Assembly (NCBI RefSeq): GCF_036203305.1
Contig: NZ_CP108131.1
Coordinates: forward strand, 6,758,001-6,822,000
Length of the DNA: 64,000 nucleotides
Direction of reading: 5' to 3'
Source of the DNA: Streptomyces sp. NBC_00190
GTDB lineage: Bacteria > Actinomycetota > Actinomycetes > Streptomycetales > Streptomycetaceae
Below the pieces are notes generated by a model. It was not told the origin of the DNA. It did not search any database and saw nothing but the letters and a program-made list of their open reading frames with translations. The first letter of the stretch is position 1. Every line of letters begins with the position of its first letter. A program made the translations under genes and the position numbers. Below are positions 57,275-64,000 of this stretch, piece by piece.

Positions 57275-57874
57275 CTACCAGCCCGCGGCTTCACCGGTCA
57301 GCTCGCGGATCGCGGGCCGCGCCGCGTCCAGCACGGTCATGAACCAGGCCGAGAACGGCACTTCGGCATGCCGCTTCGCCAATTCCTCGGCGGTGACGAA
57401 GGCGGTGTCCCCGACCTCCTCCGGATCCGGCCGCAGAGCCGCCTGCGCGAGTCCCACGAACAGGTGGTTGTACTCCTGCTCCACCAGACCCGATGCCGGG
57501 TCCGGGTGGTTGTAGCGCACCGTTCCCGCCTCTGCGAGGAGCGAGGGCGACAGCCCCAGCTCCTCGTGGGTCCGCCGGGCCGCCGCCGCGAACGGCGACT
57601 CCCCGGGGTAGGGGTGACCGCAACAGGTGTTCGACCAGACGCCGGGGGAGTGGTACTTCCCGAGGGCCCGCTGCTGGAGCAGCAGACGCCCCTGCTCGTC
57701 GAAGAGGAACACGGAGAACGCCCGGTGCAATTGCCCGGGTGCCTGATGGGCGGAGAGTTTCTCCGCCGTGCCGATCGTGTTCCCGGACTCGTCGACCAGT
57801 TCGAGCATGATCGGTTCTTGGGTCCCGGTGCCGTTGGTCGCGCTGTTCGCGGCGGTGGCTGGTGTGGTCGGCAT
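57275..57874 (-). CDS. idi: Isopentenyl-diphosphate delta-isomerase, type I
   Basis: This 199-residue Nudix-like enzyme interconverts IPP and DMAPP in isoprenoid synthesis. It has LHRAFSVFLFDEQGRLLLQQ, the active-site Cys in SNTCCGHPYPGES, the metal-binding THEELGLSPS-like Nudix helix (RRTHEEL), and EYNHLFVG containing the catalytic Glu. ATG giving MPTTPATA has AAGG about seven bases upstream; one two codons earlier is also possible. In several Streptomyces, idi lies near hopanoid genes, which may begin beyond the window. Confidence 0.94.
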   Translation of the reverse strand: MPTTPATAANSATNGTGTQEPIMLELVDESGNTIGTAEKLSAHQAPGQLHRAFSVFLFDEQGRLLLQQRALGKYHSPGVWSNTCCGHPYPGESPFAAAARRTHEELGLSPSLLAEAGTVRYNHPDPASGLVEQEYNHLFVGLAQAALRPDPEEVGDTAFVTAEELAKRHAEVPFSAWFMTVLDAARPAIRELTGEAAGW

Positions 57875-57952
57875 ACCCATCCTTCGCTTCGGACTCGGCC
57901 TTCAGTCTGCCGTACAAAAGAGGCTTGTCCCCACTTCGGAGATCCGCGCATG

Positions 57953-59318: not shown

Positions 59319-59698
59319 CGTGAACCCTTGAACGGGGGCTCCGGCCGACGAGGCCGTTCAGCGCGCGGAGCGCGTGATCAGGCCCGGCCGGACGCCCGGA
59401 GGAAATGGGGGATGCACCGGAGTTCGCCGCGCATGGCCGCGATCACTACGACGGTCATCAACCCACCTCTTCCACTCGACACGATCAGGGGCGTGTCCAC
59501 CGTAACATCGACGCTGTTTGTGGTATCGCGCCGTGATCGTCAATGATGATCACGCCCGGGCCCGGGCCGGGAATATTCGGCTTATCGGGGCGTAAACGGG
59601 TGGTGAACCCCTGCTTCCATTCATCCGATAGCCTCTGCCGACGTGTCGCCGCCCCCCAGTGGCGCCCGTTCGGAATCCGTTACAAGGAGTGAGTTCGT
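59319..59698. other. 380-bp gene-free divergent region
   Basis: This region lies between the methyltransferase-GNAT gene and the CDP-alcohol phosphatidyltransferase operon. It contains a GTGATC-N9-GATCAC dyad (59533-59553), a GC-rich CCCGGGCCCGGG run and, at the end, an AAGGAG ribosome site (59684-59689). A frame starting at 59643 is a shadow. Confidence 0.5.
59533..59553. promoter_or_regulatory. Inverted repeat GTGATC-N9-GATCAC
   Basis: A perfect 6+6 dyad about 150 bp upstream of the CDP-alcohol phosphatidyltransferase operon. Candidate operator. Confidence 0.4.
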
Positions 59699-61477
59699 CT
59701 GCCGACCGTCATCCTCACCGGCCTGCCGGTCCCCGGATCACCGCTCGCTGACGAGCTGCGCTCCCTCGGCTTCGACGTCCGGCCCGCCGCCGGTCCCGAG
59801 GACACCGCCGCCGCGCTGGCCGCCGTACCCGCCGACCAGCGGGTGGCCGTCGTGGACAGCGCCTTCGTCGGGCACGTGCACGCGCTGCGCCTCGCGCTGA
59901 CCGACCCGCGCTTCGACGCCTGCGCGGTCACCGGCGCACTCGCCGTCCAGTCCGGCGCCCGCGAGGCCCTCGACAAGGCCGTGGCCGACGCCCCCGCGGG
60001 CACCGGCCCCTACGCGGACCGGCTCGCCGCCGCGGTCGAGGCCTCCGGGACCGCCGTCCAGCGCCCCGAGCTCGGCACCCTCGTCGCCACCGTCCCCGCC
60101 ACCGCGGCGGACCGGGACGCGGCGAGCGCCGCCGTCGCCGCCGTCGACGACGAGGCCGTCCGCCTGCGGACCGCCGTGAAGTCCCGCGACGGCTTCTTCA
60201 CCACCTTCTTCATCAGCCCGTACTCGCGCTACATCGCCCGCTGGTGCGCGCGCCGCGGCCTGACCCCGAACCAGGTCACCACCGCTTCGCTGGTCACCGC
60301 GCTGATCGCGGCCGGCTGCGCCGCCACCGGCGAGCGCTGGGGCTACGTCGCGGCCGGTGTGCTGCTCCTCGTCTCCTTCGTCCTGGACTGCACCGACGGG
60401 CAGCTGGCCCGCTACTCGCTCCAGTACTCGACGATGGGCGCCTGGCTCGACGCGACCTTCGACCGCGCGAAGGAGTACTCCTTCTACGCGGGCCTCGCGC
60501 TCGGCGCGGCCAGGAACGGCGACGACGTGTGGGGGCTCGCGCTCGGCGCCATGATCCTCATGACCTGCCGGCACGTCGTGGACTTCTCCTTCAACGAGGC
60601 CAACCACGACGCGACCGCCAATACGAGTCCCACGGCGGCCCTGTCGGACAAGCTCGACAGCGTCGGCTGGACGGTCTGGGCCCGGCGGATGATCATCCTG
60701 CCGATCGGTGAGCGCTGGGCGATGATCGCGGTCCTGACCGCCTTCACCACCCCCCGGATCGTCTTCTACGCCCTGCTGGTCGGCTGCGCCTTCGGCGCGC
60801 TCTACACCACCGCCGGCCGGGTCCTGCGCTCGCTGACGCGCAAGGCCACACGCACCGACCGGGCCACCCAGGCCCTCGCGGACCTCGCCGACTCCGCCGT
60901 GCTCGCCTGGACCGGCCCGGCCCGTCCCACGAAGCGGCGGCCGAACTACGAAGCGGTGGTCCTGGCCCTGGCCGGCTCCGTGCTGATGGTCGGCGGGGCC
61001 GTGGTCCGCGACTTCGGCGCCACCTGGCTGATCGGGACCGCCGCGGGCTACGTCTTCTTCGCCGGCGCCGCCGTCTCCGGTCCCCTCAGGGGCCCCCTCG
61101 ACTGGCTCGTCCCGCCGCTCTTCCGGTTCGCCGAGTACGTGACCGTCCTCGCGCTCGCCGCCAAGGCGGACGTGCCCGGAGCCCTTCCCGCCGCATTCGG
61201 ACTGGTCGCGGCGGTCGCCTACCATCACTACGACACGGTCTACCGCATCCGTGGTGGTTCGGGCGCGCCGCCGCACTGGCTGGTGCGGACGACCGGCGGT
61301 CACGAGGGCCGGGTCCTGCTGACCGTGGTCCTGTCCGTCGTCCTCGCCCGTGACGTGTTCCCCGTCGCGCTCACGGCCATGGCCGTGTTCGTGGCACTCG
61401 TGGTGCTCGTGGAGAGCATCCGATTCTGGGTCTCCTCCGGAGCACCCGCCGTACATGACGAAGGAGAACCAGCATGA
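59699..61477 (+). CDS. CDP-alcohol phosphatidyltransferase with N-terminal domain (DUF5941-like), CTG start
   Basis: This is a 592-residue membrane protein. Residues 1 to 170 are a soluble domain of unknown function (MPTVILTGLPVPGSPLADEL; VVDSAFVGHVHALRLALTDP). The CDP-alcohol phosphotransferase motif is complete: Asp230-x2-Asp233-Gly-x2-Ala-Arg-x8-Gly-x3-Asp251-x3-Asp255, in LDCTDGQLARYSLQ then MGAWLDATFD; further hydrophobic helices run to the C-terminus. The enzyme joins a CDP-activated alcohol to a second alcohol. The frame has no ATG/GTG/TTG before residue 49; CTG with AAGGAG nine bases upstream is the only start keeping the conserved N-terminus. Overlaps the next gene by four bases. Confidence 0.8.
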   Translation: MPTVILTGLPVPGSPLADELRSLGFDVRPAAGPEDTAAALAAVPADQRVAVVDSAFVGHVHALRLALTDPRFDACAVTGALAVQSGAREALDKAVADAPAGTGPYADRLAAAVEASGTAVQRPELGTLVATVPATAADRDAASAAVAAVDDEAVRLRTAVKSRDGFFTTFFISPYSRYIARWCARRGLTPNQVTTASLVTALIAAGCAATGERWGYVAAGVLLLVSFVLDCTDGQLARYSLQYSTMGAWLDATFDRAKEYSFYAGLALGAARNGDDVWGLALGAMILMTCRHVVDFSFNEANHDATANTSPTAALSDKLDSVGWTVWARRMIILPIGERWAMIAVLTAFTTPRIVFYALLVGCAFGALYTTAGRVLRSLTRKATRTDRATQALADLADSAVLAWTGPARPTKRRPNYEAVVLALAGSVLMVGGAVVRDFGATWLIGTAAGYVFFAGAAVSGPLRGPLDWLVPPLFRFAEYVTVLALAAKADVPGALPAAFGLVAAVAYHHYDTVYRIRGGSGAPPHWLVRTTGGHEGRVLLTVVLSVVLARDVFPVALTAMAVFVALVVLVESIRFWVSSGAPAVHDEGEPA

Positions 61478-62226
61478 TCGGCCTTGTACTCGCTGCCGGT
61501 GCCGGACGCCGTCTGCGTCCCTACACCGACACCCTGCCCAAGGCCCTCGTGCCCGTCGGTCCCCAGGGCGACGAGGAGAGCATCACGGTTCTCGACCTCA
61601 CCCTCGGCAACTTCGCCGAGGTCGGCCTCACCGAGGTCGCCATCGTCGTCGGCTACCGCAAGGAAGCCGTGTACGCGCGCCGGGAGGCCCTGGAGGCCAA
61701 GTACGGCGTCAAGATCACGCTGATCGACAACGACAAGGCCGAGGAGTGGAACAACGCCTACTCCCTGTGGTGCGCGCGTGAGGTCCTCAAGCAGGGTGTG
61801 ATCCTCGCCAACGGCGACACCGTCCACCCGGTCTCCGTCGAGAAGACCCTGCTCGCCGCCCGCGGCAACGGCCAGAAGATCATCCTCGCCCTCGACACGG
61901 TCAAGAACCTGGCCGACGAGGAGATGAAGGTCGTCACCGCCGACGGGAAGGGCGTCCAGAAGATCACGAAGCTGATGGACCCGGCCGACGCGACGGGCGA
62001 GTACATCGGTGTCACCCTCATCGAGGCCGAGGCCGCCGAGCAGCTGGCCGACGCGCTGAAGACCACCTTCGAGCGCGACCCCGACCTCTACTACGAGGAC
62101 GGCTACCAGCAGCTGGTCAACGACGGATTCACCATCGACGTGGCACCCATCGGCGACGTCAAGTGGGTCGAGATCGACAACCACGACGACCTCGCCAAGG
62201 GCCGGACGATCGCATGCCAGTACTGA
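61474..62226 (+). CDS. NTP transferase (phosphocholine/inositol-phosphate cytidylyltransferase-like)
   Basis: This 250-residue nucleotidyltransferase carries the signature LAAGAGRRLRPYTDTLPK at residues 6 to 23, ANGDTVHPVSVE (metal Asp), and late VEIDNHDDLAKG. It most resembles COG1213/LicC-type enzymes that make CDP-choline or, in hyperthermophiles, CDP-inositol. Here it would supply the CDP-alcohol used by the flanking phosphatidyltransferases. ATGA overlap with the upstream stop couples translation; 13-base overlap with the next gene. Confidence 0.88.
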   Translation: MIGLVLAAGAGRRLRPYTDTLPKALVPVGPQGDEESITVLDLTLGNFAEVGLTEVAIVVGYRKEAVYARREALEAKYGVKITLIDNDKAEEWNNAYSLWCAREVLKQGVILANGDTVHPVSVEKTLLAARGNGQKIILALDTVKNLADEEMKVVTADGKGVQKITKLMDPADATGEYIGVTLIEAEAAEQLADALKTTFERDPDLYYEDGYQQLVNDGFTIDVAPIGDVKWVEIDNHDDLAKGRTIACQY

Positions 62227-63275
62227 CGAGGCTCATCCCCTCGCCCCTCGTCGTCGACATCAGTCGCGGCGCGATGGACGACCTGGCCGGCCTCCTGGCC
62301 GACCAGCGGATCTCCGCGTCCGGCAAGCTGGCGATCGCGATCAGCGGCGGCTCCGGCGTCGCGCTGCGCGCCAAGCTGGAACCGGTACTTCCGCACGCCG
62401 ACTGGTACGCCGTCGTCGACGGCACCATCGACTCCGCGGTCAAGCTGGCCGACGACATAAAGGGCCGCCGCTACGACGCCGTCGTGGGCCTGGGCGGCGG
62501 CAAGATCATCGACGTGGCGAAGTACGCCGCGGCGCGGGTCGGGCTGCCCATGGTGGCCGTCGCCACCAACCTCTCGCACGACGGCATCTGCTCGCCGGTG
62601 TCCATCCTGGACAACGACAACGGCCGCGGCTCCTACGGCGTCCCCACGCCGATCGCCATGGTGATCGACCTCGATGTGATCAAGGAAGCCCCGGTGCGGT
62701 TCATCCGCGCCGGCGTCGGCGACGCGATCTCCAACATCTCGGCCATCGCCGACTGGGAGCTCTCGCACGAGATCACCGGCGAGCCCGTCGACGGCCTGGC
62801 CGCCGCCATGGCCCGTACCGCCGGCCAGTCCGTGCTGCGCCACCCCGGCGGATGCGGCGACGACGAATTCCTCACCGTGCTCTCCGAGGCGCTGGTCCTC
62901 ACCGGCATCGCCATGTCGATCAGTGGGGACACCCGCCCGGCCTCCGGCGCCTGCCACGAGATCAGCCACGCCTTCGACCTGCTCTACCCGGGGCGCTCCG
63001 CGCTCCACGGCGAGCAGGTCGGCCTCGGCGCCGCCTTCGCGATGCACCTGCGCGGGGCCGAGGAGCAGTCCGGCCTCTTCGTCGAGGTGCTGCGCCGGCA
63101 CGGCCTGCCGGTGGCCCCGGAGGAGATCGGCTTCAGCATCGACGAGTTCGTCACGGCCGTCGAGTACGCCCCCCAGACCCGCCCGGGACGCTTCACGATC
63201 CTGGAGCACCTCAACCTGTCCGCAGCCGAGATCAGGGACGCTTACGCCGACTATGCCAAGACCATCCGTAGCTGA
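62214..63275 (+). CDS. Glycerol-1-phosphate dehydrogenase-like (iron/zinc-containing alcohol dehydrogenase family)
   Basis: This 353-residue enzyme of the EgsA/AraM branch of the iron-containing alcohol dehydrogenase/dehydroquinate synthase superfamily has the NAD loop GLGGGKIIDVAKYAA, VATNLSHDGICSPVSI, and the metal region RPASGACHEISHAFDLLYPG with His248 and His252. In this family it reduces dihydroxyacetone phosphate to sn-glycerol-1-phosphate, the archaeal-type backbone; a few bacteria have it. Here substrate could equally be another polyol. It overlaps genes on both sides, so a shared pathway with the cytidylyltransferase is likely. Confidence 0.83.
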   Translation: MPVLTRLIPSPLVVDISRGAMDDLAGLLADQRISASGKLAIAISGGSGVALRAKLEPVLPHADWYAVVDGTIDSAVKLADDIKGRRYDAVVGLGGGKIIDVAKYAAARVGLPMVAVATNLSHDGICSPVSILDNDNGRGSYGVPTPIAMVIDLDVIKEAPVRFIRAGVGDAISNISAIADWELSHEITGEPVDGLAAAMARTAGQSVLRHPGGCGDDEFLTVLSEALVLTGIAMSISGDTRPASGACHEISHAFDLLYPGRSALHGEQVGLGAAFAMHLRGAEEQSGLFVEVLRRHGLPVAPEEIGFSIDEFVTAVEYAPQTRPGRFTILEHLNLSAAEIRDAYADYAKTIRS

Positions 63276-64000
63276 ACTCCGGCCCGTCGTACACCCGGCG
63301 GGCGTCAAGGACCGGGTCAGCGGCGAGCACTGGGGCGGGCGCCTCTACATGCGCGAGATCTCCCTGCGCATCACCCGCTACCTGGTCACCACCAAGGTCA
63401 CGCCCAACCAGCTGACCTACGTGATGACCCTGGCCGGTGTCCTCGCCGCCCCGGCCCTGCTGGTGCCGGGCATCTGGGGCGCCGTCCTCGGCGTCGTCAT
63501 GGTCCAGCTGTACCTGCTGCTCGACTGCGTCGACGGCGAGGTCGCCCGCTGGAAGAAGCAGTTCTCGCTCTCCGGCGTGTACCTGGACCGGGTCGGCGCC
63601 TACCTGTGCGACGCGGCGGTGCTGGTCGGCTTCGGCCTGCGCGCCGCCGACCTGTGGGGCACCGGGCCGGTCGACTGGCTGTGGGCGTTCCTGGGGACCC
63701 TCGCGGCACTCGGCGCGATCCTGATCAAGGCCGAGACCGACCTCGTCGGTGTCGCCCGCCACCAGGCGGGGAAGCCGGTGGTCAAGGACGCGGCGGCCGA
63801 GCCGCGCTCGTCCGGCATGGCGCTCGCGCGCCGGGCCGCTGCCGCGCTGAAGTTCCACCGCCTGGTCCTGGGCATCGAGGCCTCGCTGCTCATCCTGGTG
63901 CTGGCCGTCGCGGACCAGATCCGCGGCGACCTGTTCTGGTCCCGCGTCGGTGTGGCCGTCCTCGCCGGCATCGCGCTGCTCCAGACCGTGCTGCACCTGG
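63253..64000 (+). CDS. Second CDP-alcohol phosphatidyltransferase (3' truncated by window)
   Basis: At least 249 residues are seen; the stop lies beyond the window. The motif begins normally (Asp91-x2-Asp94-Gly-x2-Ala-Arg in LDCVDGEVARWKKQ, Gly108, Asp112) but the last Asp, the usual catalytic base, is Ala116 (GVYLDRVGAYLC). Hydrophobic helices follow (WLWAFLGTLAALGAILIKA; ASLLILVLAVADQ). This may be a divergent or inactive partner of the first transferase, or use another base. Its start overlaps the dehydrogenase gene by 23 bases. Confidence 0.84.
   Translation, partial: MPRPSVAELRPVVHPAGVKDRVSGEHWGGRLYMREISLRITRYLVTTKVTPNQLTYVMTLAGVLAAPALLVPGIWGAVLGVVMVQLYLLLDCVDGEVARWKKQFSLSGVYLDRVGAYLCDAAVLVGFGLRAADLWGTGPVDWLWAFLGTLAALGAILIKAETDLVGVARHQAGKPVVKDAAAEPRSSGMALARRAAAALKFHRLVLGIEASLLILVLAVADQIRGDLFWSRVGVAVLAGIALLQTVLHL

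Follow-up and report, generated by a model that had tools for sequence, protein, structure and literature searches.

A conserved Streptomyces operon that may make and export a glycerol-phosphate glycolipid or envelope polymer

Here, we propose that seven adjoining genes of Streptomyces sp. NBC_00190, called G1 to G7 below, form an envelope operon that makes a glycerol-phosphate glycolipid or a teichoic-acid-like polymer from a cytosolic precursor activated with cytidine diphosphate (CDP), and then exports it; we hold this reading to be slightly better than evenly balanced. The operon begins in a stretch of 64,000 nucleotides (the window; contig NZ_CP108131.1, positions 6,758,001 to 6,822,000, with coordinates below counted from its first letter), which is part of an 8.89 Mb genome, and it was read on beyond the window end. 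The proposal is based on the observed gene content, order and conservation, on the predicted folds and motif states of the proteins, and on the kinship of G6 and G7 with an exporter encoded beside a TagF-type gene. From these we infer every substrate, stereochemistry, acceptor and product named in what follows.

In the proposed route, G3 would convert dihydroxyacetone phosphate (DHAP) to sn-glycerol-1-phosphate (G1P), which is probably the glycerol phosphate used, and G2 would combine G1P with cytidine triphosphate (CTP) to give sn-1 CDP-glycerol, which is the enantiomer of what TagD makes. G1, whose build resembles that of a choline/ethanolamine phosphotransferase (CEPT), would move phosphoglycerol from CDP-glycerol to a membrane lipid or a lipid-linked acceptor, while its sister G4, which is without the usual catalytic base, would either partner G1 in an obligate way or carry out a transfer whose chemistry is altered. 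G5 would add sugar, and G6 and G7 would export the product. The CEPT-like fold of G1 and the presence of a soluble cytidylyltransferase suggest the direction of transfer, with a soluble CDP-alcohol as donor and a lipid as acceptor.

Extent and conservation of the operon

A sequence-only reading of the window had described four tightly overlapping genes at its end, and these are indeed present on the plus strand; their G+C across the codon positions resembles that of coding DNA, and they carry the Pfam domains given below. They are G1 (59699-61477), a CDP-alcohol phosphotransferase with a cytidylyltransferase-like N-terminus and a C-terminal DUF5941; G2 (61474-62226), a LicC/IPCT-like nucleotidyltransferase that we propose to be a CTP:glycerol-phosphate cytidylyltransferase; G3 (62214-63275), a glycerol-1-phosphate-dehydrogenase-like enzyme; and G4 (63253-64032), a second protein of the CDP-alcohol phosphotransferase fold, whose final 32 bases lie beyond the window. 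G1/G2, G2/G3 and G3/G4 overlap by 4, 13 and 23 bases, respectively, and G4/G5 by 4 bases. Rather than stopping at 64000, the operon continues to a total of seven genes, the last three lying outside the window: G5 (64029-64913), a GT2 glycosyltransferase (PF00535); G6 (65009-65938), a TagG-like ABC-2 permease (PF01061); and G7 (65931-66713), a TagH-like ABC ATPase (PF00005). A glycosyltransferase and a teichoic-acid-type exporter beyond the window end point to the cell surface as the place of the product.

The order G1 to G7 is unbroken in all of 20 additional genus loci, picked across the range of G3 identities, so the arrangement is not a matter of chance. G3 is found in each of 150 sampled genomes of the genus, the present one included (threshold 1e-60), and the named closest relatives of G1, G3 and G4 all belong to Streptomyces. 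Across the phylum, G3-type matches occur in 64 of 296 genomes (threshold 1e-15), many of the weaker ones probably being other dehydrogenases, and DUF5941 is rarer than G3 (13/296).

Loci outside Streptomyces were taken as the best 80 of at least 541 confirmed relatives, from a scan of titled genome records. Within this best-80 set, G2 stands directly upstream of G3 in 72 loci overall, or in 71 of the 77 that have room for it. Among 18 further stretches (those of the 20 stretches L053-L072 that hold G3, four of which supplied rows to the G2 profile and at least three of which are the same contigs as best-80 loci), G2 adjoins G3 in 16, is one gene away in one and lies elsewhere on the contig in one. 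That one of the two enzymes supplies the other with its substrate is best evidenced by this tight coupling of G3 and G2 amid changing partners, which also supports the earlier suggestion that a polyol phosphate is made, converted to its CDP form and transferred. On a Micromonospora orduensis contig (L147 4397-8901) there are two inverted, equal-scoring copies of the G2-G3 pair, possibly an assembly artefact.

The partners of the pair in distant loci are of several kinds. In L062 they include a glycosyltransferase of the WecG/TagA family. In L064 (4897-11754), from a distant actinobacterial family, the genes beside the pair encode a DUF4012 protein, a priming sugar transferase and a protein resembling type I phosphodiesterases; gene lengths and order are similar in L063, L066, L068 and L069, the family search having covered L064 only. 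The partners in L062 and L064 fit envelope polymers, the L064 type perhaps making a related polymer by a different transfer chemistry.

The sequence-only reading had also pointed past 64000 to possible glycosyltransferase and hopanoid genes. The extension did bring the GT2 gene, followed by the TagG/TagH-like exporter, and hopanoid genes do adjoin the operon (hpnC, hpnD and shc, assigned by sequence recognition, lie downstream of G7), but a functional tie to them did not emerge. We give little credence to a role in hopanoid modification or transport: hpnC and hpnD lie downstream in 18 of the 20 genus loci, yet in 2 of the 20 neither was found within the 18-kb stretch on the operon's strand, and hpnC, hpnD, hpnH and shc gave no match in the best-80 non-Streptomyces loci, 58 of which are at least 15 kb long. 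The hopanoid link was rejected because these neighbours are not conserved outside Streptomyces. A putative type I isopentenyl-diphosphate isomerase gene, recognised by eye, lies near the operon and the hopanoid cluster (57275-57880, minus strand).

The enzymes G1 to G4

G3 was compared with EgsA-type enzymes by means of hidden Markov model scores and alignments to Protein Data Bank structures. It carries PF13685 (Fe-ADH_2; 102.9 bits, above the cut-off of 28) and PF00465, and among NCBIfam models it scores 241.6 bits with the G1P dehydrogenase PRK00843, under the curated equivalog cut-off of 413, against 86.9 bits with glycerol dehydrogenase. Its best solved relatives are the G1P dehydrogenases 4rgq and 4rfl (E = 1e-43), followed by 3ce9, a named glycerol dehydrogenase (E = 3.4e-41), with 1kq3 as the best other glycerol dehydrogenase (E = 1e-18). 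In alignments to solved structures, G3 has G1P dehydrogenase-type motifs in common with 4rgq, 4rfl, 5fb3 and 9h4x. D123, H248, H252 and H265 are invariant in 229 aligned sequences, being kept in 120 of 120 listed homologues and in 108 of 108 sequences from loci, the latter chosen by a pattern containing the His motif and the former not so chosen; position 170 is D or E (106 and 14, respectively, of the 120 listed homologues). The earlier assignment of G3 as a G1P-type rather than a glycerol dehydrogenase is thus upheld, if outside the curated family. Compared with AraM of Bacillus and EgsA of archaea, G3 appears alike in family, motifs and likely reaction, and differs in its score and in its gene context, which is one of envelope export and not of ether lipid. 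A Streptomyces sequence has been used in a G1P dehydrogenase alignment (excerpt of PMC5059525).

Might G3 then serve an archaeal-type ether lipid made from G1P, as its resemblance to G1P dehydrogenases allows, as part of PMC6431249 raises for Streptomyces, and as the sequence-only reading had implied in speaking of an archaeal-type backbone? We consider this extremely improbable. The geranylgeranylglyceryl phosphate (GGGP) synthase family PF01884 has no match in the genome studied here and none in the 150 genomes of the genus; in the controls, 7 of 14 genomes matched, 5 of them above the cut-off, and these include Bacillus subtilis and all four archaea. The count contradicts an archaeal-type lipid made through PcrB/GGGP synthase, unless an unrelated G1P prenyltransferase exists, and the archaeal-type backbone falls with it. 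According to the same excerpt, the genus contains species with all three archaeal genes (PMC6431249); as our 0 of 150 conflicts with this, either few species can be of this kind or the gene in question falls outside PF01884.

The second enzyme of the proposed glycerol-phosphate route, G2, has the NTP_transferase domain PF00483 (49.5 bits) together with PF12804, and LicC is its closest solved relative (1jyk, E = 8.8e-13), which places it in the LicC/IPCT type. Its use of CTP and a polyol phosphate we infer from its pairing with G3 and with CDP-alcohol transferases.

G1 is tripartite. Residues 1-150 (59699..60148, plus strand) have a cytidylyltransferase-like fold from which the glycine-rich nucleotide-binding signature is absent; the CDP-alcohol motif, D..DG..AR-8-G...D...D (60386..60463, plus strand), is complete; and residues 387-592 (60857..61474, plus strand) make up the DUF5941 region (PF19365, 291.2 bits). 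The complete motif, which is PROSITE PS00379 as quoted in PMC9385802, and the fold (PF01066, 38.5 bits) mark G1 as a CDP-alcohol phosphotransferase, and all four motif Asp are kept in 120 of 120 listed G1 homologues, G1 itself included. DUF5941 is a separate gene in some other lineages, standing alone in L088 (8716-9282). The start of G1 is most likely the CTG at 59699, nine bases after AAGGAG and with an in-frame stop just upstream (59684-59701): there is no ATG, GTG or TTG where most orthologues begin, and most aligned Streptomyces orthologues have the same first residues as the CTG-started protein. A listed protein identical to G1 (P0241) begins later and has 541 residues, most listed homologues having about 590-600.

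The structure model of G1, built from 24 sequences, resembles CEPT structures in Foldseek (E = 4.4e-4 for 8gyw and 1.7e-3 for 8ero), although G1 differs from CHPT1 and CEPT1 in sequence (11-13% identity). Like AF2299 and the bifunctional IPCT-DIPPS protein of Archaeoglobus fulgidus (4o6m and 4mnd, both aligning to residues 2 to about 376), G1 has an N-terminal domain fused to a CDP-alcohol phosphotransferase. It differs from them in that this domain is short and signature-less, in that a DUF5941 region is added, and in that the signature-bearing cytidylyltransferase is here a separate gene, G2. The earlier remark that the activities fused in hyperthermophiles are split in this operon is right for the signature-bearing enzyme and wrong in so far as G1 keeps a fused domain of cytidylyltransferase fold.

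It is on this likeness that one could picture a soluble phosphodiester solute of the hyperthermophile style, di-inositol phosphate and glycerophospho-inositol being examples. Against the bifunctional IPCT/DIPPS model NF041135, G1 reaches 49.1 bits and G4 53.5 bits (G2 43.3, all under the cut-off of 580), and G1 has the domain order of AF2299 and 4mnd. We nonetheless find a solute very improbable, given the exporter and glycosyltransferase in the operon and the extra C-terminal membrane region, and given that Streptomyces are not hyperthermophiles.

G4 likewise has the CDP-alcohol fold (PF01066, 29.2 bits), yet its motif, D..DGE.AR-8-G...D...A (63523..63600, plus strand), is incomplete, with Ala (codon 63598-63600) in place of the fourth Asp that G1 keeps. 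This Asp is held to be the catalytic base. The position is Ala in 120 of the 120 closest G4 homologues, Ala in 17 and His in 3 of the 20 further loci of the genus, and His in all 17 non-Streptomyces loci with a strong G4 match (166-304 bits), so that every G4 member read has Ala or His there. An acidic residue eight places past the third Asp was considered as a substitute base and set aside, G1 and AF2299 also having one there. The 17 His-type loci have a G5-like gene nearby in 14 cases and a G7-like gene in 11. In the 54 loci whose CDP-alcohol transferases are all of the ordinary kind, neither was nearby (0 and 0; weaker ABC matches, such as those at a contig end in L109, were left uncounted); most of these 54 come from Micromonosporaceae, and they are hence not independent.

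The same layout could also serve another alcohol. G3 would then make a different polyol phosphate or a phosphonate (starting, for example, from some other ketose phosphate), G2 would convert it to the CDP form, and what is exported would carry that group. This we regard as possible, if clearly short of probable. Beyond the sub-cut-off score of G3, its relatives in other actinobacterial genera of the phylum sample are at most 52% identical; the best solved relative of G2 handles phosphocholine, and another match is the phosphonate enzyme 6pd1; and the best NCBIfam matches of G1 (62.7 bits, cut-off 180) and G4 (53.5 bits, cut-off 580) are inositol-phosphate enzymes, sub-cut-off scores from which the CDP-alcohol domains alone do not indicate glycerol. 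Set against this is the retention of G1P dehydrogenase-type motifs in G3 and, for the phosphonate variant, the result for phosphoenolpyruvate (PEP) mutase, the entry to phosphonates, which was not above its cut-off in the genome (45.5 versus 319.55 bits) in a search where 0 of 14 control genomes passed and which thus had no positive control.

Teichoic acids and the lipoteichoic acid question

Turning to the export step of the envelope glycolipid or polymer that we favour, the best NCBIfam model for G7 is TagH (178.9 bits), G7 like G3 being near, but outside, a curated family. PF04464 marks four TagF-type genes in the genome. In L161 (6967-11697; C1:3276966-3281696), a GT2-TagF-type gene is followed by one opposite-strand frame and then by a TagG/TagH-like pair, perhaps an ordinary teichoic-acid locus with a paralogue of G6/G7. 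G6 and G7 are 57% identical over 281 residues and 76% over 256 to that permease and ATPase, and by this identity the operon exporter is a paralogue of the exporter beside a teichoic-acid-type polymerase gene. Elsewhere (L160 7247-8459; C1:5455246-5456458), a TagD-like gene (68.9 bits, cut-off 165.4) is convergent with another CDP-alcohol phosphotransferase in exopolysaccharide-cluster-like surroundings.

The proposed system shares with the wall teichoic acid system of B. subtilis (TagD, TagB/TagF, TagG/TagH) the logic of cytosolic CDP-glycerol (excerpt of PMC7086022) and a TagG/TagH-type ABC exporter. It differs in that G2 is of the LicC/IPCT and not the TagD type, in that membrane CDP-alcohol phosphotransferases replace TagB/TagF, and in that the G1P dehydrogenase-like G3 suggests the opposite enantiomer of glycerol phosphate. 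The pneumococcal CDP-2-glycerol genes gtp1-gtp3 are similar in pairing a reductase with a cytidylyltransferase to supply a polymer bearing phosphoglycerol, but use another glycerol phosphate and apparently other steps.

In light of this, what might the product be in Streptomyces? Streptomyces hygroscopicus and S. coelicolor have yielded lipoteichoic acid of the polyglycerol-phosphate type, yet sequenced actinobacterial genomes are reported to lack clear LtaS orthologues, and the syntheses of lipoteichoic and wall teichoic acid may overlap (all from an excerpt of PMC3196553). In the present genome, none of the four PF00884 matches looks like LtaS, an enzyme that has several membrane helices at its N-terminus: a simple hydropathy scan predicts no more than one N-terminal helix in three of them, and the fourth (38.3 bits, a 300-residue frame) has no membrane helix evident by eye. 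In B. subtilis, wall teichoic acid consists of sn-glycerol-3-phosphate and lipoteichoic acid of sn-glycerol-1-phosphate (excerpt of PMC7086022), so the stereochemistry of lipoteichoic acid would result if CDP-sn-1-glycerol were made in the cytosol and passed through a wall-teichoic-acid-like machine. The proposed product would share its sn-glycerol-1-phosphate units with the LtaS-made lipoteichoic acid of Firmicutes, as known from B. subtilis (same excerpt), and its making would differ in that no LtaS-like gene was seen in the genome and in that the precursor would be CDP-glycerol and not phosphatidylglycerol. Because some Streptomyces have lipoteichoic acid without clear LtaS orthologues, the operon is a testable candidate for the missing pathway. 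In its fullest form, namely an LtaS-independent pathway to lipoteichoic acid or an sn-1 phosphoglycerol glycolipid in Streptomyces and other actinobacteria, run by a transferase pair with one base-less partner, we advance the idea as speculative and rather unlikely to hold in every part.

Several points weigh against a glycerol-phosphate product. The curated cut-offs are missed by G3 and also by G7 (320 for TagH), the CDP-alcohol domains of G1 and G4 match best to inositol-phosphate and not glycerol enzymes, and the CEPT resemblance of G1 is at the level of fold only, on a model from 24 sequences. The operon itself has no TagF-type polymerase among G1 to G7, and the TagD-like gene means that a glycerol-3-phosphate route to CDP-glycerol, a second CDP-alcohol pathway, may coexist with it. 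S. verticillus gave no polyglycerol-phosphate polymer (excerpt of PMC3196553), despite the occurrence of G3 in every genome sampled from the genus, and the terms 'stereo' and 'sn-glycerol' are absent from that paper, which gives no stereochemistry for Streptomyces lipoteichoic acid. Outside the genus, most Micromonosporaceae loci have no more than the G2-G3 pair with a single ordinary CDP-alcohol transferase close by, and in 9 of the best-80 loci, three of them with a G7-like ABC gene, no CDP-alcohol motif was found nearby. In view of these reduced or motif-less loci, the product may vary between lineages.

Prior notice and meaning

The operon as such is not a new observation, since a 2026 study, in a statement concerning teichoic acid biosynthesis and secondary metabolism, describes synteny in Streptomyces between tagG, tagH, araM and crtB on the one hand and genes for a nucleotidyltransferase, a GT2 protein and a CDP-alcohol transferase on the other (excerpt of PMC13118837). 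The literature searched yielded no paper on how these genes work biochemically, on the missing Asp of G4 or on any tie between the operon and lipoteichoic acid. What is added here is the tripartite make-up of G1, the motif loss in G4, the paralogy of the exporter, the finding that GGGP synthase is absent, and the hypothesis on lipoteichoic acid.

Thus, a genus-wide operon in which a G1P-type dehydrogenase is joined to activation with CTP, to transfer of the lipid type and to export of the teichoic-acid type offers a direct candidate for the pathway behind Streptomyces lipoteichoic acid. The gene for a G1P-type dehydrogenase figures in debates on the lipid divide (excerpt of PMC6431249), and our proposal, if true, would explain why such a dehydrogenase is retained in bacteria without GGGP synthase. 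G4 would be a natural test of a CDP-alcohol transferase fold working without its base. If true, the proposal would also add a third route to polyglycerol-phosphate envelopes, one that combines bacterial G1P, CDP-activated sn-1 glycerol and TagGH-type export.

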